From the NCBI RefSeq assembly GCF_024346585.1, contig NZ_AP024523.1, positions 753,001-817,000 of the forward strand: a stretch of 64,000 bases of DNA, given 5' to 3'. Shown piece by piece: positions 7,128 through 22,117 of this stretch. The stretch is from Streptococcus toyakuensis (GTDB lineage Bacteria > Bacillota > Bacilli > Lactobacillales > Streptococcaceae). Each line of letters starts with the position of its first letter. Position 1 is the first letter of the stretch. The notes below the pieces were generated by a model that was not told the DNA's origin, searched no databases, and saw nothing but the letters and a program-made list of their open reading frames with translations. The position numbers were made by a program, and so were the translations under genes.

Positions 7128-8213
7128 ATGAAACCGTCAATTTATAGTTTAACACGTCAAACCATGCAGGAATGGGTTTTGGAGCAGGGAGAAAAGAAAT
7201 TCCGTGCAGATCAAATCTGGGAATGGCTCTACCGTAAACGTGTCCAGTCATTTGAAGAAATGACCAACCTTTCCAAGGATTTGATTGCTAAGCTTAATGA
7301 CCAGTTTGTGGTTAATCCATTGAAACAGCGAATCGTGCAAGAATCTGCTGATGGGACAGTTAAATATCTTTTTGAATTGCCAGATGGAATGCTGATTGAG
7401 ACAGTACTCATGCGTCAACACTACGGTTTATCTGTCTGTGTGACCACTCAGGTCGGCTGTAATATCGGTTGTACCTTCTGTGCCTCTGGTTTGATTAAGA
7501 AACAACGTGACCTCAATAATGGGGAAATCGTAGCGCAAATCATGCTGGTTCAGAAATACTTTGATGAGCGTGGTCAGGATGAGCGTGTCAGTCATATCGT
7601 TGTCATGGGAATTGGTGAACCATTTGATAATTACAACAATGTCTTGAATTTCGTTCGTACTATCAATGATGACAAGGGAATGGCCATCGGTGCTCGTCAC
7701 ATTACGGTTTCAACCTCAGGTTTGGCCCATAAAATTCGTGATTTTGCTAATGAAGGTGTTCAGGTCAATCTTGCCGTTTCCCTTCACGCACCTAATAATG
7801 AACTGCGCTCAAGCATCATGAAGATTAACCGTGCCTTTCCGATTGAAAAACTCTTTGCTGCTATTGAGTACTATATCGAAACAACCAATCGTCGTGTAAC
7901 CTTTGAGTATATCATGCTCAATGAAGTAAATGACGGTGTAGAACAAGCCTTAGAATTGGCTGAATTGCTCAAGAACATCAAGAAATTGTCTTATGTCAAC
8001 TTGATTCCTTATAACCCAGTTAGTGAGCATGACCAATATAGCCGTAGTCCTAAAGAGCGCGTCCTGGCCTTCTATGATACGCTTAAGAAAAAAGGGGTCA
8101 ACTGTGTTGTTCGTCAAGAGCATGGTACAGATATTGATGCAGCTTGTGGACAATTGCGCTCTAACACAATGAAACGTGACCGCCAGAAAGCAGTCGCAGC
8201 AGTCAATCCTTAA
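7128..8213 (+). CDS. rlmN: Dual-specificity 23S rRNA A2503 / tRNA A37 C2-methyltransferase
   Basis: A radical-SAM enzyme that methylates C2 of A2503 in 23S rRNA and A37 in some tRNAs. The 361-aa length is typical. The cluster-binding motif C-x3-C-x2-C is seen in [13 protein letters not shown], the SAM region in [15 protein letters not shown], and the second conserved Cys that takes part in the reaction in DAACGQL near the C-terminus. Start 7128 has AAGGAGAAG. Its stop overlaps the VanZ gene start, so yutD-rlmN-vanZ-ABCF look like one operon. Confidence 0.97.
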
Positions 8214-11097: not shown

Positions 11098-11247
11098 TCT
11101 ATTCCTCTCAAAAATTCATTTCTACCATTGTACCCTAAAAGGAAGTGGATTTCAAATGTTAGTGACAAGACAGTTTAAGAGGAAGTCAACCTGAAGGTCG
11201 CTTGTTTAGAGGTATCAATACCATAAGTGTACTCGAAGTATTTAGGA

Positions 11248-11297
11248 AACCAGGTCTTAAGAAAGCTCGTAAAGCTTCACAATTCTCAAAACGTTAA
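11248..11297 (+). pseudogene. rpsI 3'-end fragment (left attachment region)
   Basis: Reads K-P-G-L-K-K-A-R-K-A-S-Q-F-S-K-R-stop, the C-terminus of ribosomal protein S9. Nothing upstream of it matches S9, so it is a tail without a gene. The 28 bases 11257-11284 recur at 21972-21999. Confidence 0.8.
11257..11284 (+). repeat. Putative attL core (direct repeat with 21972-21999)
   Basis: 28 bp, one mismatch to the right copy, in the same orientation and 10,715 bp apart. It lies beside the integrase gene as expected for a site-specific element. Confidence 0.75.
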
Positions 11298-11382
11298 TCA
11301 ATACGATACTATCAACGTTTCAAAGCACTCAAGAGTTTACCTCATGGGTGCTTTTTTTATGTTTTTTGAAAAAGTTCACCTC

Positions 11383-11399
11383 AAAGTTTACCTTATTTT
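11383..11399 (+). repeat. Candidate integrase arm site, left
   Basis: AAAGTTTACCTTATTTT, identical over 17 bases to 21846-21862 in the same orientation. Related shorter copies (AGTTTACCT, AAGTTCACCT) lie at about 11333 and 11373, between att and int. Confidence 0.5.
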
Positions 11400-11403
11400 C
11401 ACC

Positions 11404-12621
11404 TTATTGTTTTAGAGACCTTAAGGCAAATTCACCGACTGCCATAGGGACTACATTAGAAGTATTGACATAAATCTGTGTTGTACCTGTGTCGCTATGT
11501 GTTAGAGCTTCGGAAATGGCTTCTAAGCTCATTCCAGCCTGTTTAGCGAGCGTTGCTCCTGTATGTCGCAGTTTATGTGGTGTAGCGTGTGCTAGTTCTT
11601 TATGTCGCTTTCTAATACTTTTCATTTTATTGTTCAGATAGTCAGCATGTAAAGGCTTGTTGATGTTTCCTTTTGTGTCGATATATGTAAAAACAAATTG
11701 TTCTGGATTACTGATGATGCCGAACTTTGCTAATTCATATCTTTGTTGTTCTTTCCAATTTTTGAGCAATTGGAGTAAGTCACCTGAAACAGAAAAGACA
11801 GTTTTCTTGTTGCTTTTTGTTGATTTTACTTCTCCATATCTATCTAATGCTTGGAGTAATTGAATTTGCGATTTATCAAAGTCGATATGTTTCCATTGAA
11901 GAGCATAGGTTTCAGATTTTCTATCGCCTAAGAAAAAAGTAAGATAAAATAGGACATAATCTTTAAGGGTTATTTTATCATTGTCTAAATCTTCTTGAAA
12001 TGCTGAGAACCATTCTTGGAGTTGTTCATGAGTTAGATATAAATCTTCCTCTCTCTTGGACTCTGCAAGTTGAATCTTTTTAGTGGCCTTTATTCTTCTT
12101 AATATTTTTGCAACTTTATTAGCTTCTATATATTCAAGTTCTTCTGCCCAATCAAAAATGGAAATCACATAGCTACGTAAAGATTTGAAGTTCGCATATT
12201 CATCAGCTTTAGATGTCATTAGATTTAGGATAACTTGCTTATTTTGATTTAGAAACTGTATCGTATAGTTTCCAAGAAGTGGTAGTATATGTTTTTCAAA
12301 ACAGGTTTTGGTATTTGCAACTGTTGACCTGCTTGGTGGCTTAGAAGTAGATGTAGTTTGTCCTGCTTTATAAGAGTCCCACCAGATATTGTTATAGAAG
12401 TCTGAGAAAAGAATATCTCCTTTTGCAAGTCCTGAAAATTCATTATCTTCTATTTGATTTAACTTGGTAAGCAAGTCTATCTCAGCTTGTCTTGCCTCCT
12501 TTCTAGTTTTAAATCGCTTATCGTAATAGTTGCTATTGACAATTCCAAGTGGCATTCGTGCTTCAATTGGGATATAGATTTTTAAGCGATAAGTTCCGTT
12601 TTTTGTTTTAGTGATAGTCAT
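11404..12621 (-). CDS. int: Tyrosine integrase of the IME
   Basis: 405 aa, Tn916/ICESt-like architecture: N-terminal arm-binding domain (MTITKTKNGTYRLKIYIP), a SAM-like core-binding domain, and a C-terminal catalytic domain. Catalytic residues are visible: Arg in LGDRKSETYALQW, Lys in the beta-hairpin KSTKSNKKTVFSV, HKLRHTGATL (H-x-x-R), His in SEALTHSDTGTTQIY and the nucleophile Tyr in the same block. Start 12621 is chosen for its AAGGAGAATATC site rather than an ATG 12 codons upstream. Recombines the att repeats. The stop codon lies next to the candidate arm site and about 120 bp from attL. Confidence 0.93.
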   Translation of the reverse strand: MTITKTKNGTYRLKIYIPIEARMPLGIVNSNYYDKRFKTRKEARQAEIDLLTKLNQIEDNEFSGLAKGDILFSDFYNNIWWDSYKAGQTTSTSKPPSRSTVANTKTCFEKHILPLLGNYTIQFLNQNKQVILNLMTSKADEYANFKSLRSYVISIFDWAEELEYIEANKVAKILRRIKATKKIQLAESKREEDLYLTHEQLQEWFSAFQEDLDNDKITLKDYVLFYLTFFLGDRKSETYALQWKHIDFDKSQIQLLQALDRYGEVKSTKSNKKTVFSVSGDLLQLLKNWKEQQRYELAKFGIISNPEQFVFTYIDTKGNINKPLHADYLNNKMKSIRKRHKELAHATPHKLRHTGATLAKQAGMSLEAISEALTHSDTGTTQIYVNTSNVVPMAVGEFALRSLKQ

Positions 12622-12687
12622 GATATTCTCCTTGTGTATCGAACCAGAAAATATCATGACTATTATAAAACAAAAATCTTGATATTT

Positions 12688-12951
12688 CTAGTTATGTAAG
12701 TTTAGCCATTGATCGATAGCGTCTTTATGGAATCGAATCGTTTTACCGATTTTGATTTTGGGTAAGCCTTTTACAATCCAAGAATCCAGTGTATTATTTG
12801 ATATACCTAAATAGTTACAAGCTTGTTGTTTGTTCAAATAGGGACTATCGATACCGCTCTTGTCTAATTGCTCTCTGATTTCTTTCTTTATAAGATTAGA
12901 GAGTAAAAGTTGAATTTGATGAATTTGTTCATCTGGTAAGATTACTTGCAT
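12688..12951 (-). CDS. xis: Excisionase-like helix-turn-helix protein
   Basis: 87 aa. The C-terminal half (YLNKQQACNYLGISNNTLDSWIVKGLPKIKIGKTIRFHKDAIDQWL) is a MerR-type winged HTH (HTH_17) as found in excisionases and directionality factors. The N-terminal half is helical. It lies 66 bp upstream of int in the same direction and is preceded by rep, the usual place for a recombination directionality factor. It may also regulate int. Confidence 0.85.
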   Translation of the reverse strand: MQVILPDEQIHQIQLLLSNLIKKEIREQLDKSGIDSPYLNKQQACNYLGISNNTLDSWIVKGLPKIKIGKTIRFHKDAIDQWLNLHN

Positions 12952-12964
12952 AGCTTTTCCTCCG

Positions 12965-13618
12965 TTATACTTCTATTAAAGTAGAGTCTGATATGATGTC
13001 TCTAGTTTTATTAGGAGTATTCGTCAAGGGAGCTTTTGATGAAGTTATTTTGCTTTTATCTGTACTATACCTTCGTGAATCTAAATACTTGGCAAAAAAG
13101 TAAGTTTTATCTACGATAAGTCTTAATAAGGTCGGATTTTCTTCTCTCGCATACCTAACCAGATGATTAAATTCAGTGAAATTATTCTTGTCTATCACGT
13201 CAATAATAGTTGATAGAAAATCATCGTTGTTATGGTTTATGAGGAATTTATCCAATTCAAATCCGCATCCAATTTCTATATCTTTGATATCGTACGGACT
13301 TTTCTCAGGATTCTCCGCATGGACAAAGTAGTCATACATCCCTTTTGGAGACATAATAGGTTCTACATGAGCAGGTCCCTTTAATTTATCCTTGATGAGT
13401 TCAGATACTTGAGAATAACTTTTGAGTGAATCGAAGAAAAAGGCGCCATGCTTATGAGCTTTTTTAAGTTCCCCTGTTCTTCTATTAACGTCTTTATCGT
13501 GCCAAGGGGATAAGATAAAGGGAATATGAAGGTCTTCAAGGATTTCTAAATAGTTTTCTGGGGCGCTCTCTCTGTAGAAAAGAAAAGCCCACTTGTTGGA
13601 ACGTTGTTCTTTTGACAT
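12965..13618 (-). CDS. Rep_2-type HUH replication initiator / probable relaxase
   Basis: 217 aa from ATG 13618 (GAGG at good spacing; an ATG three codons upstream is too close to it). Similar in layout to RepB of pMV158: metal-ligand region SPWHDKD near residues 37-43, HUH motif H-K-H at residues 55-57 (LKKAHKHGAFFF), and the nucleophile Tyr region MYDYFVHAENPEKSPYD with Tyr 95/97. These positions nearly equal the known RepB residues (His55, His57, Tyr99). It should nick DNA at the hairpin 13729-13760 just upstream. In IMEs such proteins are thought to serve as relaxase and for rolling-circle maintenance of the excised circle. Confidence 0.87.
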   Translation of the reverse strand: MSKEQRSNKWAFLFYRESAPENYLEILEDLHIPFILSPWHDKDVNRRTGELKKAHKHGAFFFDSLKSYSQVSELIKDKLKGPAHVEPIMSPKGMYDYFVHAENPEKSPYDIKDIEIGCGFELDKFLINHNNDDFLSTIIDVIDKNNFTEFNHLVRYAREENPTLLRLIVDKTYFFAKYLDSRRYSTDKSKITSSKAPLTNTPNKTRDIISDSTLIEV

Positions 13619-13728
13619 ATACAACATACCTCGCTTTCAAATTGTATTTCTATCTATAAGGAGATTTAGAAGGGTTCTTTCGGAAGGTGGAAGACGCTTT
13701 TTTGATATTTCTGTGATTATTGATTATT

Positions 13729-13760
13729 GGACTAACGGGGTCGTAGTAACCCGTTAGTCC
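13729..13760 (-). other. Double-strand origin / oriT nick hairpin of the Rep_2 protein
   Basis: A perfect 11-bp stem (13729-13739 / 13750-13760) exposes a 10-nt loop that reads TTACTACGAC on the minus strand, followed by CCCC. The pMV158-family nick site is TACTACG/AC. Predicted cut is between minus-strand bases 13742 and 13741, in the rep leader, exactly where a dso lies in these replicons. Confidence 0.85.
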
Positions 13761-13772
13761 ATATACCAAGCA

Positions 13773-13817
13773 GACGGGCGCTAGGTGGCGCTTACTTCGT
13801 GCGCCATAGCGCCCGTC
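13773..13817. other. Nested long hairpin beside the origin
   Basis: Outer stem of 11 bp (13773-13783 / 13807-13817) and inner stem GGCGC/GCGCC (13787-13791 / 13801-13805) around a 9-nt loop. GC-rich in an AT-rich region and without a T tract on the minus strand, so it is probably part of the origin (Rep binding, or transfer structure) and not a plain terminator of the upstream gene. Confidence 0.6.
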
Positions 13818-13820
13818 CTA

Positions 13821-14420
13821 TTATTTACGTCTTGTTCCGATAAAGTAGAAGTCCATGCCCTTTCTTTCAGGTCTTGAAAAATAATAGTCAGGATTGCGAC
13901 TAGAAATTTCTTCACTGATGATTGTTTCCAAATCTTTTAGAATTCTAATGGCTTGTTGCGATTTGGGGACAGGAATAATCAATGTTGTGCTTTCCTCTCG
14001 TATATCTACAAGCACTTTCTGAATCGCTTTATTGAACTGTTTGTTGATAGGGTTGTATCTCTTTGTGTTTCCTTGCTCGCTTGTGCTTACAGTTTCTGAG
14101 TACTCTCTTTGAATCAGAAATAGACGAAGAGAAAAGGTCTGTGTAATGGACTTAAAGAGGTTTGATATTTTATCTTCTCTGTGGCGTATCTTAATTTCAT
14201 AGCCAACTAATCCAAGTAATAAGAGAAGGGACAATAAAGAAATAGATGAGCTGATAAAGTGAAGCAAGCGCAGGAAATCAAACAGAGATGTGAAATAGAT
14301 ACTGTTTTCCAAGGGATTCATTCCAAGCCTCAATAAGATTGAAATAAACATAGATAGGATTCCCATTATAAAAAAGGTAGTTGCTGGATGAATGGTTTTT
14401 TGAAAATTCGTTTTTCTCAT
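13821..14420 (-). CDS. IME membrane protein of unknown function
   Basis: 199 aa with two N-terminal membrane segments (FIMGILSMFISILLRLG; LHFISSSISLLSLLLLLGLVGY) and a cytoplasmic C-terminal half of mixed alpha/beta look that ends in a basic segment (RPERKGMDFYFIGTRRK). I do not recognise a family. It lies 3 bp downstream of the FtsK-like gene in the same operon, and such a membrane partner next to a coupling protein suggests a role in mobilization, for example docking to the helper conjugation pore (inference). Confidence 0.7.
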   Translation of the reverse strand: MRKTNFQKTIHPATTFFIMGILSMFISILLRLGMNPLENSIYFTSLFDFLRLLHFISSSISLLSLLLLLGLVGYEIKIRHREDKISNLFKSITQTFSLRLFLIQREYSETVSTSEQGNTKRYNPINKQFNKAIQKVLVDIREESTTLIIPVPKSQQAIRILKDLETIISEEISSRNPDYYFSRPERKGMDFYFIGTRRK

Positions 14421-14423
14421 AGT

Positions 14424-15512
14424 CTATAAAATTCCTTTCTTGGTGTAATAGGTGGGACAGAGGAGGGGGAAAACTTGATAAGGATGTTCGTTATCAATAA
14501 TCTGTATAAGTCCTGTTCCTTTGCCTATCGGAATAACGATGCCCTCAGGGTCGAGGTCGGGAAACAAAAACTGTGTGGTCTTTTTATTAATGTTTCCAAT
14601 CTGTATCAGAACATTCAATTGTTCCCGAACGGATACGGGGATAGTTGTATGGTCAAAGCGTTGACTGACTAGAAGTAAATGAACACGTGTAGCTCGTCCC
14701 AGTAGTGCGATTTGAGACAATAAAGAGAAGAAAGAATCTTTGATGGTTCTGTTGACTCCTTCTGACAAGGCTAGTACTTCATCAATAACAATGGTTAGAT
14801 GTTTAAATTCATGACGTGGATTTTCAAACAAGATGGCTTGCCTTTTATGAATGATGGTCATACACTTGCTCAGGTTTTCATTAATTTCTGAAACAAAATC
14901 AGATTTAGAGCGGTTTTCATGGGGGTGAATAACGGGAGTTTGGTGTTCTCTTGCCCAGCGTGATGGTGTATCAAACTTAGGGTCAATAATAATTAGGTCA
15001 GAAATGTTTTTCAGGACACTAAGTAGATAAGTCAAAGCGTAACTTTTCCCACTACCGGAATTACCAGCAATAGCCAAAGAAGTTACCTTATCATAGTTAA
15101 TGGCTAGATTTTTCATGATAGGAATATTATTACCCTTTAGAGACGAGGTAAATATCTCAAGGTCTGGAATGACCAAGCGCTCCGAAACTCCTTTTTTCCA
15201 TGGAAAGAATAAGCCACGCTGAACATGAATATCCTCTGACTTTAAGGCGATAAAGTAAGCAGAGTTTTGTTTCAATAGCGTATATTGAGGATAGAGGGAG
15301 GCGTTTGCGATTAGAAAAATCTTCTGATACAAGTCATCATCAATGATAAAGCCACATGGTAGACGAGGGACAAAGATAAAGCCGTCTTCTCGGACAAGAA
15401 TGTTAAAAGAGTTGGTGTAGGATGTTTCACCCTGTAATACAGAGCCCAAACCCATATTTAGGCTCTGTAACAGGTATTGTTCCAACTCTCTTTGTGTGAG
15501 AGTTGAAACCAT
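14424..15512 (-). CDS. FtsK/SpoIIIE-type ATPase, TcpA-like coupling protein
   Basis: 362 aa. Walker A is GNSGSGKS (about residues 155-162), Walker B LTIVIDEV (about 241-248), followed by RATRVHLLLVSQR, the FtsK-HerA core. It has no clear N-terminal membrane helices, so it is shorter than Tn916 Orf21-type proteins; the neighbouring two-TM protein may supply the membrane link. Expected role: bring the relaxase-DNA complex to a conjugation channel encoded by a helper element. The start overlaps the stop of the small upstream gene by one base. Confidence 0.88.
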   Translation of the reverse strand: MVSTLTQRELEQYLLQSLNMGLGSVLQGETSYTNSFNILVREDGFIFVPRLPCGFIIDDDLYQKIFLIANASLYPQYTLLKQNSAYFIALKSEDIHVQRGLFFPWKKGVSERLVIPDLEIFTSSLKGNNIPIMKNLAINYDKVTSLAIAGNSGSGKSYALTYLLSVLKNISDLIIIDPKFDTPSRWAREHQTPVIHPHENRSKSDFVSEINENLSKCMTIIHKRQAILFENPRHEFKHLTIVIDEVLALSEGVNRTIKDSFFSLLSQIALLGRATRVHLLLVSQRFDHTTIPVSVREQLNVLIQIGNINKKTTQFLFPDLDPEGIVIPIGKGTGLIQIIDNEHPYQVFPLLCPTYYTKKGIL

Positions 15513-15832
15513 TAGTTCACCTCTTTCAATCCGTCAGCTTTGAAGTAGACATTGTAGTTAACTTCGCATGCCATTAGACCTTCAAATGAAACCAGAGATA
15601 GGTAGTCTGGCAGTTCAGGTGCTTCTGTAAATTTCACTTGAAAAGGCGGAAGTCCTTTTTGTCCGAACCAAGGCTTATAAGCGACAATTTCCCCTGTTGG
15701 TTTGTTGTTTTCGTACTTTTGTTGGGGTTCGAGTTCGTCACTCAGTAAGTAGATAGGAGCGTTGAGGTCAACGTATTGTTGAGCGATATGGTTTGAGTAA
15801 CCGCCTTTTCGGTGTTGTGGTTTGATTTTCAT
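15512..15832 (-). CDS. Small IME protein, possibly DUF961-like
   Basis: 106 aa from ATG 15832, which has AAAGG upstream; the longer frame to 15895 runs through a likely 5' leader. The C-terminal part (PFQVKFTEAPELPDYLSLVSFEGLMACEVNYNVYFKADGLKEV) loosely resembles the C-terminus of the DUF961 proteins (Tn916 Orf22/23) that sit at the start of transfer operons. The resemblance is by eye and weak. No membrane segments. It precedes the FtsK-like gene with a one-base overlap, so the two are translationally linked. Confidence 0.65.
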   Translation of the reverse strand: MKIKPQHRKGGYSNHIAQQYVDLNAPIYLLSDELEPQQKYENNKPTGEIVAYKPWFGQKGLPPFQVKFTEAPELPDYLSLVSFEGLMACEVNYNVYFKADGLKEVN

Positions 15833-15989
15833 ATGGATATACCTTTCTATATGAAGCTTAAAAACTAAGAAGAGACAAGCTCGGTTTGAGGTCATGAGCT
15901 GGACTTTTAAAACTACCTCCTAATTAATGGACAAAATTAAGGGTAGTTGAACCATTTTTGAGCAAAAAAGGCCTAATTTTTTTGTTCAA

Positions 15990-16508
15990 TTATTCTGTGA
16001 GTCTTTCTTTTATATAAGACATTATTTTCGGTATCTTACGTTGGATTTTACGATAGTCCTCATTTAATCTTCTACCCATTTCTCTGAAAGAAAGTTTCTT
16101 GTAGTTTATATAGGTTTCCCCCCTATACGTATATTCATATTCTTCAAATGAATGGCAAAGTAAGATAATGTCTCTGTCAAGTTCATCTAATTCAGATAGA
16201 ACCTTTTTTAATCTTGGCAATTGAGCTAAGGTAAATTCTTCATCTTCTGTCTGAATGAGAAAGTCAAGAGGATTAGGGGAATCATCTATAAACAAGTCAA
16301 GTGGAGTTGTTTCGTTATTTGTTCTTCCATTGTTTATTTTGGAGTTTAGACTTATTTCTTTACGACGACATTGGCGAGCATAACTATTTTCATGTCTATC
16401 ACTCTCATTTAGCCATTCAAGCCAGAAAGATTGCTCTTCTGGAGTTAGAGATTTAACGAGTTTTTCATTTAATTTCTTTTTAGAAATTTCTTCATATATA
16501 TTATTCAT
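15990..16508 (-). CDS. Sigma-70 region-4-like regulator of the IME
   Basis: 172 aa. The C-terminal half (VLSELDELDRDIILLCHSFEE ... LSFREMGRRLNEDYRKIQRKIPKI) resembles sigma region 4 with a HTH, as found in small regulators of Tn916-like and related elements. The N-terminal half is charged and lacks sigma region 2, so it is more likely a regulator than a full sigma factor. It is the first gene of the leftward operon. Its upstream region (16510-16700) carries a long inverted repeat and a palindrome that may be its operators. Confidence 0.7.
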   Translation of the reverse strand: MNNIYEEISKKKLNEKLVKSLTPEEQSFWLEWLNESDRHENSYARQCRRKEISLNSKINNGRTNNETTPLDLFIDDSPNPLDFLIQTEDEEFTLAQLPRLKKVLSELDELDRDIILLCHSFEEYEYTYRGETYINYKKLSFREMGRRLNEDYRKIQRKIPKIMSYIKERLTE

Positions 16509-16529
16509 GTTGGTTCCTTTCTGTCCTTA

Positions 16530-16664
16530 GGACGGAAAGAAACTTCAATGAGCCATACTGAATACCGATAGATGTGAAAAGGGCACACCAAATAAACGGA
16601 TAAACAGATATATGCAGAACTCGACCGTTATCGTCTGAGTTTTCATATTCGTTTCAATCCGTCC
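16530..16664. promoter_or_regulatory. Widely spaced 14-bp inverted repeat upstream of the sigma-like gene
   Basis: GGACGGAAAGAAAC (16530-16543) and GTTTCAATCCGTCC (16651-16664) are inverted copies with 12 of 14 positions matching, about 107 bp apart. They frame the likely leftward promoter region of the IME operon. Confidence 0.45.
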
Positions 16665-16666
16665 AT

Positions 16667-16680
16667 TTGATGGCCATCAA
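16667..16680. promoter_or_regulatory. 14-bp perfect palindrome, candidate operator
   Basis: TTGATGGCCATCAA is its own reverse complement and lies between the divergent sigma-like gene and the plus-strand module. Confidence 0.45.
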
Positions 16681-16723
16681 TTAGGACTAATATTATTATT
16701 CTGAAGAAAACGCTTGTGAAATT

Positions 16724-16732
16724 TGATATAAT
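16724..16732 (+). promoter_or_regulatory. Extended -10 promoter of the two-gene module
   Basis: TGA-TATAAT at 16724-16732, followed by about 115 nt of leader with repeated GTAGATAAA units (around 16798-16818) and an AGAGGAG ribosome site before ATG 16847. Confidence 0.6.
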
Positions 16733-16846
16733 AGAATCAAATATACATTTGCCTTATCTTCAAACTTTATTATGAAGTAGATGGAGTTACTTGTAAATGT
16801 AGATAAAGTAGATAAAGTTACCAAATAAAGTAAGAGGAGTTAAAAA

Positions 16847-17737
16847 ATGTCATCTAACGTTCCACGCCTAACAGGAGGGATACTCTTTGGGCTTATTCTT
16901 GAAGCTAGAAATACTAGAAGAAGAGTACGTAGTACAAGAGTACGTGGTGTTGTAACTGATAAAAGTGATGGTTTAAATGAAGATGATATGATGTTATCGT
17001 TCATCGAGAACTTTACAGGGGAATCCCTTTTAAAAGTTAAAGGGACATCATTTAAAAAGAATGTGTCTGAATATAAAAAATGTGTGATATCTGCTACATC
17101 ATATTTGATCTTTGACGACCAAACTTTTATTGATTCTTTTGAAACCTCAGTTAAGCAAAATAAAAAAGACACACTTGAGAGTATGTCTGCTTTTATAAGT
17201 AATAAGTTTTCAGAGCAAAAATTGGAATGGTTTGCTTCTGCTATTATAGAAACAATCTGTAATGATGAAACAATTGATATTTCGGAACGATTTAAGATTT
17301 CTGTTAATAATACTGTATCTAAGTCAGAATTATTAAGTATTACAACAGTAGAAATTGAGCCATTCTTGTTAGATGTGATGAGATATATATTTGTAAATAA
17401 AATTGATAATACACTCGGTAAAGAAACATTTGAGGAATGGTATTCTCAAAATGGAGAAAATACGCCATGGAAATTCAGAAACTCAGAACTGGGAAAGTCT
17501 TTGCCTAATTTAGAAATAACTCGTTATAACCCAAGTGTGGAAGAGTTGAATGAACAAACTGCTGGAATAGTGGAACAAGAGCATGTTGAAGAATCAGATA
17601 CTGAGAACGAAGAAGAGAAAAAATTTAATACTGAAGGTGAAGAATCTATGAAACAACAAGTATTGAATAATCCAAAAATCATAACTCAGTATGCTAACAA
17701 AATTTATAACATAGAACATGTAGAAAATTTAAATTAA
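16847..17737 (+). CDS. Unknown protein A of a two-gene accessory module
   Basis: 296 aa, soluble, AT-rich codons. Three parts can be seen: an N-terminal block beginning NVPRLTGGILFGLILEAR followed by SDGLNEDDMM and SFKKNVSEYKKC, which look like conserved motifs of a compact helical domain; a middle helical region; and a very acidic linker (about 240-270, EQEHVEESDTENEEEKK). The last 16 residues (QYANKIYNIEHVENLN) match the N-terminal region of the next protein (QNADRIYNIEQANSVN). I do not recognise a named family. Inference: a sensor or adaptor that binds its partner through this shared strand-like motif. Start supported by AGAGGAG. Confidence 0.75.
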   Translation: MSSNVPRLTGGILFGLILEARNTRRRVRSTRVRGVVTDKSDGLNEDDMMLSFIENFTGESLLKVKGTSFKKNVSEYKKCVISATSYLIFDDQTFIDSFETSVKQNKKDTLESMSAFISNKFSEQKLEWFASAIIETICNDETIDISERFKISVNNTVSKSELLSITTVEIEPFLLDVMRYIFVNKIDNTLGKETFEEWYSQNGENTPWKFRNSELGKSLPNLEITRYNPSVEELNEQTAGIVEQEHVEESDTENEEEKKFNTEGEESMKQQVLNNPKIITQYANKIYNIEHVENLN

Positions 17738-17747
17738 GGAGAATACA

Positions 17748-18323
17748 TTGACAAACTCACTAAAAAGGCAGGATAATTTGCCCTCAGAATTTCCCCAACA
17801 ACCACTACAACAAAATGCGGACAGAATTTATAATATTGAGCAAGCAAACAGTGTAAATCATATCGTTAATGTTACACCTATACGGCAGATACTCTCTTCC
17901 AATGAATATTATAACCTATTTATAATTTACAATGAGAAGTATGAAGAGAACTCGTTTAGTTTAAACAATGATAGGGTTTTTCAATACACAAATTCAGCAA
18001 TTAGTCAAAAGTTCAATCAATTCACTTTAGAAGATATTGATGAAATAATGAGTTTGCCAGCTTTATTCCTTCCAGAATATAGTGAGGCGAAACAAGAGAT
18101 AAAAACTGGATTTTTTGGAAAATTAGTAGATATAGATAAAAGAGCTGGATATATAAAATTTGATTTTCAGAAAGAATGTGAAATTGATTTAAATCTGATC
18201 GAACTTCATCAATCAGAATTAAAAATAGAAGATTGGGAATTAAGTAGGACTCACTGGGCAATTAAAAGAGCCAATTTAAAGAACATTTTAAAAGGCTTTG
18301 GTAATGGCAACGAAACAGAGTAA
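17748..18323 (+). CDS. Unknown protein B of a two-gene accessory module
   Basis: 191 aa, starting at TTG 17748 with AAGGAG seven bases before it. Residues 22-37 (QNADRIYNIEQANSVN) match the C-terminal tail of protein A. After a proline/glutamine-rich lead comes a helical domain (IRQILSSNEYYNLFIIYNEKYE) and a C-terminal block with TGFFGKLVDIDKRAGYIKFDF and LSRTHWAIKRANLKNIL, which look like conserved family motifs. No membrane segment, nuclease or ATPase motif is visible. The 10-bp gap and shared motif indicate that A and B form one complex. Function is unknown; a conflict or stress role is inference from its cargo position. Confidence 0.75.
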   Translation: MTNSLKRQDNLPSEFPQQPLQQNADRIYNIEQANSVNHIVNVTPIRQILSSNEYYNLFIIYNEKYEENSFSLNNDRVFQYTNSAISQKFNQFTLEDIDEIMSLPALFLPEYSEAKQEIKTGFFGKLVDIDKRAGYIKFDFQKECEIDLNLIELHQSELKIEDWELSRTHWAIKRANLKNILKGFGNGNETE

Positions 18324-18540
18324 AGAAGTAAAAATTCAACGTGAAGTTGAAGAGTGGCAACGTCTTACGGCATGGAGTTTGTGACACAAAATGAAAGTGT
18401 CAATCCAAAGATTGACAAAGCCTTATCAAAAGCTAGAACGAACTTATAAGATGTCAATAATGCGGTAGGACGTTATGAAGAGGTCGTCAATCTCGTCAAA
18501 TTTGGTAAAGACGAAATGAAATTAGATGGATTATTTATTG
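18304..18540 (+). pseudogene. Decayed coding remnant after protein B
   Basis: ATG 18304, inside the end of protein B, begins a 26-codon frame (MATKQSKEVKIQREVEEWQR...) ending at TGA 18382. The next frame continues with coding-like text (EFVTQNESVNPKIDKALSKA, then stop, then VGRYEEVVNLVKFGKDEMKLDG). Frameshift plus stop imply a broken gene; the style recalls small phage proteins but I cannot name it. Confidence 0.5.
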
Positions 18541-18562
18541 AGGTAATAGCGATACCTGCATT

Positions 18563-18670
18563 TAACATCATAGAAGCGTGTGTGTGGCGGAATAAGTGAA
18601 AACTATAGTCTGGTAGTCCTAAAGCAGATAGACGCTTTTTAAGAGTTGCTCTTTCATTTCTATCGCACAT
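18563..18670 (-). pseudogene. Fragment of a second tyrosine recombinase
   Basis: On the minus strand: RATLKKRLSALGLPDYSFHLF then RHTHASMMLNAGI, the H-x-x-R box of phage-type tyrosine recombinases. Both the catalytic Arg I region and the terminal Tyr are missing. It differs from the intact integrase (which has HKLRHTGATL), so it comes from another element. Confidence 0.8.
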
Positions 18671-18924
18671 ATAATTCCCGTATATGGTTGGGAATATGAG
18701 TGAAGATTTTCTGTTTCGTTCGCTTTTTTGTCTAATCTATCGATTTTAAAAATTTATAATAAAGAATTACTGAAATCAAAATCTTTTTGTCCCAGTCTCT
18801 TATGTTGTTTAATAGAGTTGCTATTGCATCAATTATATCTGTTTTTTGTGGTTCTGGTATTTGTTCAAGTTGAGTGATAATATAGCGAATTGAATTTCGA
18901 GAGTTTTTACTCAGTTAATTTTTC
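18671..18924. other. AT-rich stretch without an intact gene
   Basis: On the minus strand about 60 codons are open without an ATG (about 18735-18910; contains YIITQLEQIPEPQKTD and RDWDKKILISVILYYK), which reads like the C-terminal remnant of a protein. Otherwise I see nothing up to the pcpA promoter. Confidence 0.35.
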
Positions 18925-18952
18925 TTGACTTAAAATTTAAAAATGATATACT
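18925..18952 (+). promoter_or_regulatory. pcpA promoter with AT-rich inverted repeat
   Basis: TTGACT (18925-18930), 16-bp spacer, extended TGA-TATACT (18944-18952). The spacer overlaps the inverted repeat TTAAAATTTAA (18930-18940). In pneumococcus pcpA is repressed by the Mn-responsive regulator PsaR; this repeat over the promoter is a plausible PsaR site (inference). The 5' leader is about 130 nt. Confidence 0.65.
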
Positions 18953-20440
18953 ATGTTTATGGAGAGATAACAATTTATAAAATGTACTACTCTATTCTAC
19001 TAGATAATGCTTGAATAAAACTTTTTATAACAACGGCTAGCAAAGTTATAGTTTTATATCTATTAGAAAATAAATATGTAAGGAAATTTATATGAAAAAA
19101 GAACAGTATTATCATTAACTACAGCTGCGGTTATATTAGCAGCATATGTCCCTAATGAACCAATTCTAGCAAATACACCTAGTTCGGAAGTGATCAAAGA
19201 GACTAAAGTTGGAAGTATTATTAAACAAAATAATATCAAATATAAGGTTCTAACTGTAGAAGGCAACATAGGAACTGTTCAAGTGGGTAATGGAGTGACT
19301 CCTGTACAGTTTGAAGCTGGTCAAGATGGAAAATCATTCACGATTCCTACAAAAATCACAGTAGGTGATAAAGTATTTACCGTTACTGAAGTAGCTAGTG
19401 AAGCTTTTAGTTATTATCCAGATGAAACAGGTAGAATTATCTACTATCCTAGCTCTATTACTATTCCATCAAGCATAAAAAAAATACAAAAAAACGGCTT
19501 CCTTGGAAGTAAAGCTAAAACTATTATTTTTGAGAATGGCAGTCAGCTGGAGAAAATTGAAGATAAAGCTTTTAATTTTTCTGAATTAGAAGAGATTGAA
19601 TTGCCTGCATCTCTAGAATATATTGGGACAAGTGCATTTTCTTTTAGTCAAAAATTGAAAAAGCTAACCTTTTCCTCAAGTTCAAAATTAGAATTAATAT
19701 CACATGAGGCTTTTGCTAATTTATCAAATTTAGAGAAACTAACATTACCAAAATCGGTTAAAACATTAGGAAGTAATCTATTTAAAAATACTACTAGCTT
19801 AAAACATGTTGATGTTGAAGAAGGAAATGAATCGTTTGCCTCAATTGATGGTGTTTTGTTTTCAAAAGATAAAACCAAATTAATTTGTTATCCAAGTAAA
19901 AAAAATGACGAAAGTTATAAAACACCTAAGGAGACAAAAGAACTTACATCATATTCGTTTGATAAAAATTCTTATTTGAAAAGACTCGAATTGAACGATG
20001 GTTTAGAAAAAATCGGTACTTTTGCATTTGAAGATGCGATTAAACTTGAAGAAATTAGCTTACCAAATAGTTTAGAAACTATTGAACGTTTAGCATTTTA
20101 TCGTAATTTAGAATTAAAAGAACTTATATTACCAGATAATGTTAAAAATTTTGGTAAACATGTCATGAACGGTTTACCAAAATTAAAAAGATTAACAATT
20201 GGTAATAATATCAACTCATTGCCGTCCTTCTTCCTAAGTGGCAGCTTAGATTCATTAAAGGAAATTCATATTAAGAATAAAAGTACAGAGTTTTCTGTGA
20301 AAAAAGATACATTTGCAATTCCTGAAACTGTTAAGTTCTATGTAACATCAGAACATATAAAAGATGTTCTTAAATCAAATTTATCTACTAGTAATGATAT
20401 CATCGTTGAAAAAGTAGATAATATAAAACAAGAAACTAAC

Positions 20441-20776
20441 GTAGATAAACCTAAAGAAGGAACAGGTAAAACTGAAACTGACGTAGCTAAACCTAAAGAA
20501 GGAACAGGTAAAACTGAAACTGATGTAGCTAAACCTAAAGAAGGAACAGGTAAAACTGAAACTGATGTAGCTAAACCTAAAGAAGGGACAGATAAAACTG
20601 AAACTGACGTAGCTAAACCTAAAGAAGGGACAGGTAAAACTGAAACTGACGTAGCTAAACCTAAAGAAGGAACAGATAAAACTGAAACTGACGTAGCTAA
20701 ACCTAAAGAAGGGACAGGTAAAACTGAAACTGATGTAGCTAAACCTAAAGAAGGAACAGGTAAAACTGAAACTGAT
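20441..20776 (+). repeat. 42-bp tandem repeat in pcpA, 8 copies
   Basis: Encodes V-(D/A)-K-P-K-E-G-T-(G/D)-K-T-E-T-D eight times with few silent or single-base differences; a ninth partial unit begins at 20777 (VAKPKKNSNQG). It lengthens the wall-spanning linker before the choline-binding modules. Confidence 0.95.
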
Positions 20777-20815
20777 GTAGCTAAACCTAAAAAGAATTCT
20801 AATCAGGGAGTAGTT

Positions 20816-21292
20816 GGTTGGGTTAAAGACAAAGGCTTATGGTATTATTTAAACGAATCAGGTTCAATGGCTACTGGTTGGGTTAAAGATAAAGGCTTAT
20901 GGTATTACTTAAACGAATCAGGTTCAATGGCTACTGGTTGGGTTAAAGATAAAGGCTTATGGTATTACTTAAACGAATCAGGTTCAATGGCTACTGGTTG
21001 GGTTAAAGATAAAGGATTATGGTATTACTTAAACGAATCAGGTTCAATGGCTACTGGTTGGGTTAAAGACAAAGGCTTATGGTATTACTTAAACGAATCA
21101 GGTTCAATGGCTACTGGTTGGGTTAAAGACAAAGGATCATGGTATTATCTTGATACTGCTGGAGCTATGAAGACAGGTTGGTTTACAGTTTCTGGTAAAT
21201 GGTACTATACCTATAATTCAGGAGATTTATTAGTAAACACCACTACACCCGATGGCTATCGAGTCAATGCTAACGGTGAGTGGGTAGGATAG
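20816..21292 (+). repeat. 60-bp choline-binding repeats of pcpA
   Basis: Five almost identical 60-bp units (GWVKDKGLWYYLNESGSMAT), one divergent unit (GSWYYLDTAGAMKT) and the terminal unit (GWFTVSGKWYYTYNSGDLL...). Aromatic residues form the choline sites that anchor the protein on teichoic acids. Starts at 20816, 20876, 20936, 20996, 21056, 21116 and 21176. Confidence 0.93.
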
Positions 21293-21324
21293 GTATCCAT
21301 TAGCTAAATCTAATCATTCTGAAC

Positions 21325-21360
21325 TAAAAAATCTTCTTACATATGTAGGAAGATTTTTTA
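21325..21360 (+). terminator. pcpA terminator
   Basis: TCTTCTTAC / GTAGGAAGA stem with one wobble pair around ATAT, A-rich before and T-rich after; works in both directions. Confidence 0.75.
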
Positions 21361-21361
21361 G

Positions 21362-21412
21362 ATTCTCAAAACTAGTTTAAAAGACTACGCTATTTAAACC
21401 AATTTTGAGAAT
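21362..21412. repeat. Long inverted repeat beyond pcpA
   Basis: ATTCTCAAAACTAGTTTAAA pairs with TTTAAACCAATTTTGAGAAT (18 of 20 exact, the rest wobble) around an 11-nt loop. No T tail. Could be a small mobile repeat or a 3' RNA stabiliser. Confidence 0.5.
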
Positions 21413-21970
21413 GGATATATAAGGATATTCAGAAATCTAGTTGGTCAACTTTTGTATTTTGAATATACCTTAGATGGTGACGATGTCTTGGTATATCTGA
21501 TACTCACTTACATATTCTAACTTATTTTAACTAAGATAAAACTGTAGTGGTGAATTTGCTACAAATAGTGTAGAGGCGTTATTTGAAAAATATACAAAAA
21601 AGGAACTCCAATTTACATTTGAGTTCCTCTTACTTTTAATTGTCCGAATCAATATTCTTATTTCAAAAAAAGGTAGTGATTCGGCTGATTTTTATTGCAA
21701 TGTAGTGAAATTTGAAATTTCAAGAATCGCTTTAAATCAAGGTTTCTACCGTATATTGACGTGTAGTGAATCCCTATTTCACTTCTGTAAAACTAAATAA
21801 GGGAAACTTTTGATATTCTGGTTCGATTTTTGCTTATTTTTTATGAAAGTTTACCTTATTTTGATGAAATTGATTAAAATTAGTTGAAATTTTATGTTTT
21901 GAAAACTTATGAAAACGTTGATTTTAAAGCACTTTGAAATTAGATGAAATAAGTGGTGCCCCAACCAGAT
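21413..21970. other. Non-coding right end of the island
   Basis: No credible gene. It holds a bidirectional hairpin with AGGAACTC/GAGTTCCT (21601-21628; better T run on the minus strand), GTAGTGA repeats at 21673, 21702 and 21763, the arm-site copy at 21846-21862 and then the right att core. This looks like the recombination-protein binding end of an integrative element. Confidence 0.55.
21846..21862 (+). repeat. Candidate integrase arm site, right
   Basis: AAAGTTTACCTTATTTT, identical and co-directional to 11383-11399 beside the integrase gene. Confidence 0.5.
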
Positions 21971-21971
21971 T

Positions 21972-21999
21972 TTAAGAAAGCTCGTAAAGCATCACAATT
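21972..21999 (+). repeat. Putative attR core
   Basis: 28-bp copy of 11257-11284 with one T/A difference. In frame it reads KKARKASQ but then LVNVN instead of FSKR-stop, so this side is a degenerate copy of the S9 tail. Confidence 0.75.
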
Positions 22000-22117
22000 A
22001 GTAAACGTTAATTCGAAAGAATTACTATATTTTAAAAGAGCACATTTTCAAAGAATTTTTTCTTTTGGATTCAATTCCTAATTAATCAATGAACTTAATA
22101 CTAGGTCTCGAAAAGAA

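Follow-up and report, generated by a model that had tools for sequence, protein, structure and literature searches.

Matched terminal motifs in two neighbouring genes of a streptococcal mobile element suggest a split, BASS-like immune-type switch

Introduction

Two small, adjacent genes carried on a mobile element of Streptococcus toyakuensis, here termed A and B, raise the question of why the C-terminus of one protein should resemble the N-terminus of the next and what the two products might do together. The genes lie in a window of 64,000 nucleotides, by which we mean the whole stretch of DNA analysed. On the basis of the letters alone, a first-pass annotation had concluded that A and B bind each other or a common partner and had proposed a role in conflict, either in phage defence or in element exclusion. 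Arrangements of this kind have a precedent in the gene pairs with bacterial amyloid signalling sequences (BASS), whose discovery relied on motifs in the C-termini of Bell proteins and the N-termini of neighbouring NLR proteins (PMC8086366; PMC12261475). Here, we follow the A-B pair through its relatives, partner proteins and gene neighbourhoods.

Results

An intact gene pair next to a restriction gene remnant

Gene A (16847-17737, plus strand) has an ATG start and encodes 296 amino acids; after a spacing of 10 bp, gene B (17748-18323, plus strand) has a TTG start and encodes 191. Both appear in the ORF list exactly where they had been placed before, and both have good ribosome-binding sites (GAGGAG ahead of A, AAGGAG ahead of B). 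The extended -10 element previously proposed to drive the pair is present as an exact match, TGATATAAT (16724-16732, plus strand), 114 bp upstream of A, and is promoter-like in sequence, in a window that contains 16 occurrences of this pattern versus 3.2 expected. A two-hexamer promoter scan of positions 16500-18900 returned 12 sites versus 11.5 expected and thus, being at chance level, contributes nothing to the case for a promoter.

A consists of a mostly helical domain (approximately residues 1-236), an acidic disordered linker and a C-terminal motif, QYANKIYNIEHVENLN (17687-17734, plus strand; residues 281-296), that is conserved in its homologues. B carries its motif, QNADRIYNIEQANSVN (17811-17858, plus strand; residues 22-37), close to the N-terminus, followed by a core domain (17892-18308, plus strand; approximately residues 49-187) that contains WELSRTHWAIKRANL near its end and shows homology with TIR and FRG proteins. 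The AlphaFold2 model of A (mcb0e52f9c90d) has a mean pLDDT of 79.2, with values below 50 from residue 237 onward, save residue 281, and that of B (mcac22894b524) has a mean of 68.4, with order mostly from about residue 45; both motifs fall in low-confidence regions of the single-chain models. Pfam, NCBIfam and PADLOC yielded no credible family for either protein: the lone NCBIfam match to A (E 0.012) scored 15.7 bits against a cut-off of 121, the defence proteins listed in PADLOC provided no family for A or B at E values up to 1, and B of the window contains no Pfam domain and hence no NACHT or NB-ARC domain. Likewise, a fold comparison with A returned no match, and no housekeeping annotation was found for A or B. 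A gene-by-gene search recovered a single copy of each in the genome that contains the window.

As the first-pass annotation had noted, the pair is divergent from the genes of an integrative mobilizable element (IME), whose backbone (11404-16508, minus strand), recognized from the ORF list, Pfam and NCBIfam, encodes an integrase, an HTH_17 excisionase-like protein, a RepB-type Rep protein, an unnamed 199-aa protein, an FtsK-like protein, an unnamed 127-aa protein and a sigma-factor-like protein of 172 aa. The latter (15990-16508, minus strand) matches TIGR02937 at an E value of 4e-4, under the cut-off of this model, and its gene and A are transcribed apart, with a gap of 338 bp between them. 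Across 7680 bp, records from Streptococcus pseudopneumoniae and S. mitis contain copies that share 98.2-98.3% identity with this element. With the S. mitis record (L005), the alignment extends over window positions 11243-22047, from the 3' end of a gene that we take to be rpsI, judging from the gene sizes in L003-L006, across the element itself to the gene of a choline-binding-like repeat protein. Since the same segment sits between other genes in the window, joint movement of the element with its flanking DNA seems likely. The large repeat protein (19190-21292), which directly adjoins the element, has 700 aa compared to 753 aa for its L005 counterpart and by eye combines a leucine-rich-like N-terminus with KPKEGTGKTETDVA repeats and choline-binding-type WVKDKGLWYYLNESGSMATG repeats.

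Overlapping the end of B, a tblastn comparison revealed the remnant of a type IIG restriction-methylation gene (18304-18524, plus strand), a feature absent from the first-pass annotation. It matches residues 1-46 and 592-624 of an intact 690-aa relative (L006; PADLOC type IIG, E 2.5e-213), with its pieces in more than one frame, an in-frame stop and the middle gone. The window thus holds an A-B pair without its former neighbour. The pair itself could then be all that is left, no longer functional, of a restriction module that has disappeared, an idea in keeping with the degraded type IIG gene and with the finding that three close relatives (98% identity over 7.7 kb) align across the same remnant. 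However, both ORFs are intact and retain their ribosome-binding sites and the upstream -10 element, and the A protein is 100% identical in L003-L005, which leaves this as a minority view, albeit one that carries some weight.

The pair recurs in streptococci, other Bacillota and their phages

We collected 82 homologues of A and 54 of B. Distant A-B pairs occur in phages, a plasmid, viral contigs and genomes, and the hosts of the named records are streptococci, other Bacillota and their phages. A search with B alone led to 30 viral loci, 24 of which have A nearby (in one case, L061, with one gene between), showing that homologues of the two proteins do co-occur. The other loci comprise a distant A-B fusion (L068), an interrupted A (L073), a B with a different partner (L064) and three cases in which B is found with an effector-type protein (L076, L078 and, putatively, L077, with 433 aa); in L076, B goes with a TIR domain, and in L078 the TIR domain is encoded in the next, overlapping ORF. 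The interruption in L073 was attributed to an IS3-type element by its likeness to L009 (10621-12250), where an IS3-type transposase gene pair interrupts A and leaves B and the AAA_13 gene intact.

In genome sets that overlap and include the window's own genome where it belongs, A was rare, being present in 8/398 genomes of the phylum, three of these being weak A-like matches, in 5/197 of the genus, in 2/54 and 2/63 around G134, in 1/4 around G133 and in 3/19 and 3/97 around G210; SNaCT14, a domain discussed below, was present in 2/398 genomes of the phylum. Two further proteins contain parts of A. One, of 518 aa in total (L041, 8391-9947), joins the A domain to a C-terminal half without a Pfam match. 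In the other (P0070), the N-terminus of A adjoins a stretch that, by eye, is also present in the specificity protein of L006, possibly reflecting a recombination junction or an assembly artefact.

Tails of A match the heads of their own partners

For the window pair (L001), the local BLOSUM62 score between the A tail and the B head is 45, a value reached by none of 500 composition shuffles of the A tail, which bears out the matching motif initially noticed in the letters. The same comparison was extended to 31 non-redundant A-B pairs with adjacent and intact genes, a sample outside which stand the loci with a broken A (L007), an interrupted A (L009, L073), an intervening gene (L061) or another domain in place of A (L064). 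By eye, the motifs fall into several types, among them YNIE (as in the window), PNYGT, a QIGS type, NNNSFYNHV with GNTLIAHA, TNIG..TYNI, and VNIGQATNV with TNIGLAQNV. The mean cognate tail-head score of the 31 pairs is 57.9, versus 21.1 for the tail against the best-scoring segment of the B core, and in 28 of them at most 5 of 500 shuffles reach the cognate score; the weak pairs are L060 (40/500) as well as L055 and L028 (6/500 each). The A tails of these three loci and of L062 contain QIG, extended to IQIG in L028 and L055, a sequence that resembles the core of the RHIM motif.

When the pairs were clustered, cognate scores exceeded non-cognate ones at each level: with means of 57.1 versus 32.0 for 25 clusters represented by one pair each, 55.6 versus 30.7 for 14 clusters (60%) and 63.0 versus 27.9 for the coarsest division into 6 clusters, the observed mean being reached by 0, 0 and 34 of 20,000 permutations, respectively. 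The cognate head ranked first in 9/25, 8/14 and 6/6 clusters; as it did so in just 9/25 and 8/14 at the finer levels, specificity lies between motif types and not between close relatives. As far as the sequences tell, the similarity of motifs within pairs is a family trait that is specific at the level of the motif type.

The match withstands changes in gene context. In L061, the A tail still matches the B head across the intervening gene (score 49; 0/2000 shuffles). This gene (7540-7989) is NUDIX-like as judged by eye. In L064, a motif swap pairs B with another domain that carries a matching motif (score 58; 0/5000 shuffles). This domain is not A (-0.7 bits with the A profile) and is weakly similar to the N-terminus of the NACHT protein in L114 (about 19 bits over residues 11-140; E 2e-4 in a larger set).

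Separate and fused proteins differ in this respect. When scored against heads from other loci, the tails of 30 of 35 separately encoded A proteins outdid every one of 60 shuffles, the counts for the remaining five being 1, 1, 3, 3 and 5 of 60, whereas none of 13 fused linkers (12 A-NACHT proteins and the A-B fusion of L068) did so, the nearest being L100 with 2/60; this contrast is somewhat flattered, because the bank of heads includes relatives of the tested tails, favouring clades with many members, and contains no relatives of the fused proteins. A further 11 A-B fusions of streptococcal type, found among the 82 A homologues and joined at the motif, stand outside this test. By eye, most of them retain one motif-like stretch, and P0040 retains two, indicating that fusion is not always accompanied by loss of the motif. 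In the simplest view, the motif may couple A to its partner when the two are encoded apart and was lost from the older fusions.

Alternatively, the motif could be a generic low-complexity oligomerization segment of conflict proteins that is uninformative as to the pairing of A with B. Similar Q-x-G-x-N stretches do occur in several motif types, and close relatives cross-match freely. Nevertheless, the excess of cognate over non-cognate likeness at all three clustering levels, the failure to detect the motif in any of the 13 older fusions and its retention upon exchange of the partner domain in L064 make this alternative quite improbable. Since the motif is conserved, its type is specific to the pair and natural fusions exist, the earlier proposal that A and B bind each other or enter one assembly appears well grounded on sequence evidence.

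A is linked to NLR-like proteins

The fusion of A to a NACHT protein was first found in L008. The presence of NACHT and SNaCT14 was checked with Pfam in L008, L043, L046, L095 and L109. In L043, the gene following A encodes a NACHT-SNaCT14 protein instead of B, and the head of this protein matches the A tail (score 46; 7/5000 shuffles). The DUF6650 protein encoded after it starts with the motif as well (score 61; 0/5000 shuffles), as does its counterpart in L093, so that DUF6650 proteins may be a third type of partner. Matches between the A tail and the NACHT head were also obtained for L093, L089 and L090 (0, 1 and 0 of 2000 shuffles), which share one motif type with L043 and are therefore not independent cases. 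A search with the NACHT protein of L043, which itself lacks an A domain, identified 29 viral loci; a strong A domain is fused N-terminally in 11 of them, a separate A gene with a shared motif immediately precedes the NACHT gene in 2, a weak A-like N-terminus is present in 9, and in 7 none was detected. One locus (L117, 7185-11100) contains an A-NACHT fusion followed by a second, separate A gene with a motif-bearing tail, whose partner was not found within the stretch.

These partnerships bear on the possibility that A and B work in the manner of a toxin and its antitoxin, with one of them keeping the other inactive and the motif serving as an inhibitory contact. Such a pair would indeed be expected to look like two small, adjacent and co-directional genes on a mobile element, and fused forms exist. 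However, the domains of A and B are each also fused to other domains, a motif at the same place links A to a NACHT protein, and no toxin or antitoxin family was matched in Pfam, NCBIfam or PADLOC; we consider this explanation highly improbable.

A may also have a role other than that of an effector. A CTD11 protein of the ABC-3C type (L047) has an A-like N-terminus, and the A-like domain matches the first part of a HamA model. Given this position ahead of CTD11 and the match to the start of HamA, A could, by sequence, be an adaptor rather than an effector.

The core of B is shared with TIR and FRG proteins

The core of B corresponds to the N-terminal domain of CAP12/PCTIR-type TIR, TIR_2 and FRG proteins. 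TIR and FRG domains occur in known effectors. A profile built from pair-B proteins alone matched 120/120 of the TIR/FRG proteins examined, these being the best 120 of 7039 from a search whose query included effector rows and in which the 8000 candidates sharing most words with it were scored. Among the starts listed for these proteins, the matches begin at residues from 2 up to 24 and 33, and three second matches start at residue 217. The predicted fold of the B core shows a tentative resemblance to the PUA/EVE/YTH group of modified-base readers, and the EVE sequence profile (PF01878) does not match B.

Relatives of the pair neighbour restriction and ATPase genes

The survey of neighbourhoods for recurring pairs that had been suggested at the outset yielded 38 A-B records, with loci on one contig counted once and two couples of records (L011/L016 and L042/L054) that may represent identical DNA. 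In 25 of them, the pair is followed by an AAA_13 ATPase gene, separated from it by a small HTH gene in 17 of the 25. Seven records (the window, L003-L007 and L019) form a close group from streptococci, Veillonella and Lactococcus, five (L042, L044, L045, L054 and L055) encode a protein of 1076-1077 aa after the HTH gene, and in one (L065) the HTH gene is present and no AAA_13 gene was found. The AAA_13 protein of L012 matches the PADLOC candidate PDC-S06 (E 4e-207), that of L018 is annotated as RloC by its depositors, and the small HTH protein of many relatives, one of which was scanned, resembles MAD1 of methylation-associated defence.

Restriction-type genes are the other neighbours of the pair. 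Downstream of B, L006 encodes a type IIG restriction-methylation protein together with a specificity protein, L007 a type II restriction enzyme and a methyltransferase, and L042, the one locus scanned among the five with the 1076-1077-aa protein, an SNF2-type helicase, a DUF4391 protein, a Schlafen-AlbA protein and a methyltransferase of type III-like character. In L019, a 63-aa gene after B looks by eye like the start of the L007 restriction enzyme. The two AAA_13 records scanned further contain a type II restriction enzyme (L018) and a ResIII/SNF2-type helicase (L049).

This setting suggests another reading, in which the motif is a docking tag only and a stable A-B complex controls or helps the restriction system next to it, for example in expression or assembly, and neither signals nor kills. 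It would explain why the pair directly precedes restriction genes in L006, L007 and L042, why many relatives include a small HTH protein that, in the one scanned, is MAD1-like, and why both AAA_13 loci scanned further have a restriction-type gene downstream. By contrast, it sits poorly with the AAA_13 ATPase in 25/38 records, with TIR and FRG domains, known from effectors, as the other partners of the B core and with the fusion of A to NACHT proteins. We thus regard a pure docking function as unlikely.

Discussion

Our results point to a split receptor/effector immune-type switch, probably formed by A and B and coupled in trans by their matched motifs in a BASS-like manner. We infer that such a switch would involve physical assembly of the two proteins, possibly with a cross-beta (amyloid) structure, an effector half, a trigger and a function in defence. 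In the proposed mechanism, the short N/Q-rich motifs, one at the C-terminus of A past a flexible acidic linker and the other at the N-terminus of B, would join the proteins in the cell. B would be the receptor-like half, with a core that TIR and FRG proteins carry as their N-terminal domain, and A would occupy the slot of the effector domain in NLR-like proteins, as it does at the N-terminus of NACHT-SNaCT14 proteins. The most likely trigger would be altered nucleic acid or an altered state of an adjacent restriction system, upon which B may cluster and its motif may nucleate an assembly of A motifs, setting off the action of A.

The first-pass interpretation is partly upheld: restriction-modification, AAA_13 and NACHT/NLR-like company and the fusion of the B core to TIR and FRG domains speak for a role in conflict, whereas element exclusion found no support of its own. 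The links to NACHT/NLR and TIR/FRG proteins, like the restriction-gene remnant, go beyond what the first-pass annotation had recognized.

The closest parallel is with BASS. In both cases, one protein carries a short motif C-terminally and the product of the neighbouring gene carries a matching one N-terminally, and some relatives, with A ahead of a NACHT-SNaCT14 gene, have an NLR-type partner. However, the receptor side of the window pair is not an NLR, such partners being confined to relatives such as L043, L089, L090 and L093. Moreover, the protein on the effector side is A, for which Pfam and fold comparison gave no Bell match and whose usual partner is B, not an NLR. The likeness concerns the arrangement, and membership in BASS1-10 or amyloid formation would be a further step.

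A second parallel is provided by the bNACHT proteins, which have their effector at the N-terminus and their sensor at the C-terminus (PMC12169576). The members of clade 14 are described there as all having SNaCT domains and no effector domain that can readily be recognized, although two of them conferred robust phage defence (PMC12169576). Provided that SNaCT14 stands for clade 14, as its name implies, A is found as the N-terminal domain of, or in the gene adjoining, proteins with NACHT and SNaCT14 modules, although the window proteins themselves contain neither a NACHT module nor a SNaCT domain.

Other known systems bear on single features of the pair. The CAP12/PCTIR-type TIR, TIR_2 and FRG proteins have the B core as their N-terminal domain, but their effector-type domain is part of one polypeptide with it, and most of them begin directly with the core and lack a head that bears a motif, whereas B has the motif and no effector-type domain. 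The EVE/YTH/ASCH modified-base readers of the PUA superfamily may resemble B in predicted fold, and the EVE sequence profile does not match B. PrrC/RloC and PDC-S06 have putative counterparts in the AAA_13 proteins that follow relatives of the pair (L012, L018), but no AAA_13 gene follows the pair in the window. ABC-3C systems differ in that neither A nor B matches a CTD or a middle component. Within the titles and abstract openings searched, a scope that excludes most subscription journals, we found neither a description of the A-B pair nor one of A as the effector-slot domain of SNaCT-type bNACHTs. The logic of the pairing is thus known, and what is new lies in A and B as domains, in a receptor that is not an NLR and in the restriction context.

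It is tempting to go further and to picture an alarm for the state of methylation, although we give this version a small chance. Next to a restriction system, an EVE/YTH-like B would sense nucleic acid that is foreign or bears the wrong modification and, through templated, amyloid-like assembly of the motifs, signal to A, a new effector domain that would represent the missing effector of SNaCT-type bacterial NLRs. The motif would render receptors and effectors interchangeable, with A or other domains on one side and B, NACHT or DUF6650 proteins on the other.

If the split-switch reading is true, effector/receptor pairs with matched terminal motifs would not be limited to NLR-Bell combinations, and a receptor other than an NLR would work in this position. 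A would become a candidate, amenable to testing, for the effector reportedly missing from SNaCT-type bacterial NLRs, and a common domain would tie TIR and FRG proteins to the A-B module. The distinct motif pairs of the family could also be used directly in tests of specificity. For streptococci and other Bacillota, it would mean that such split pairs spread on small mobile elements and phages.
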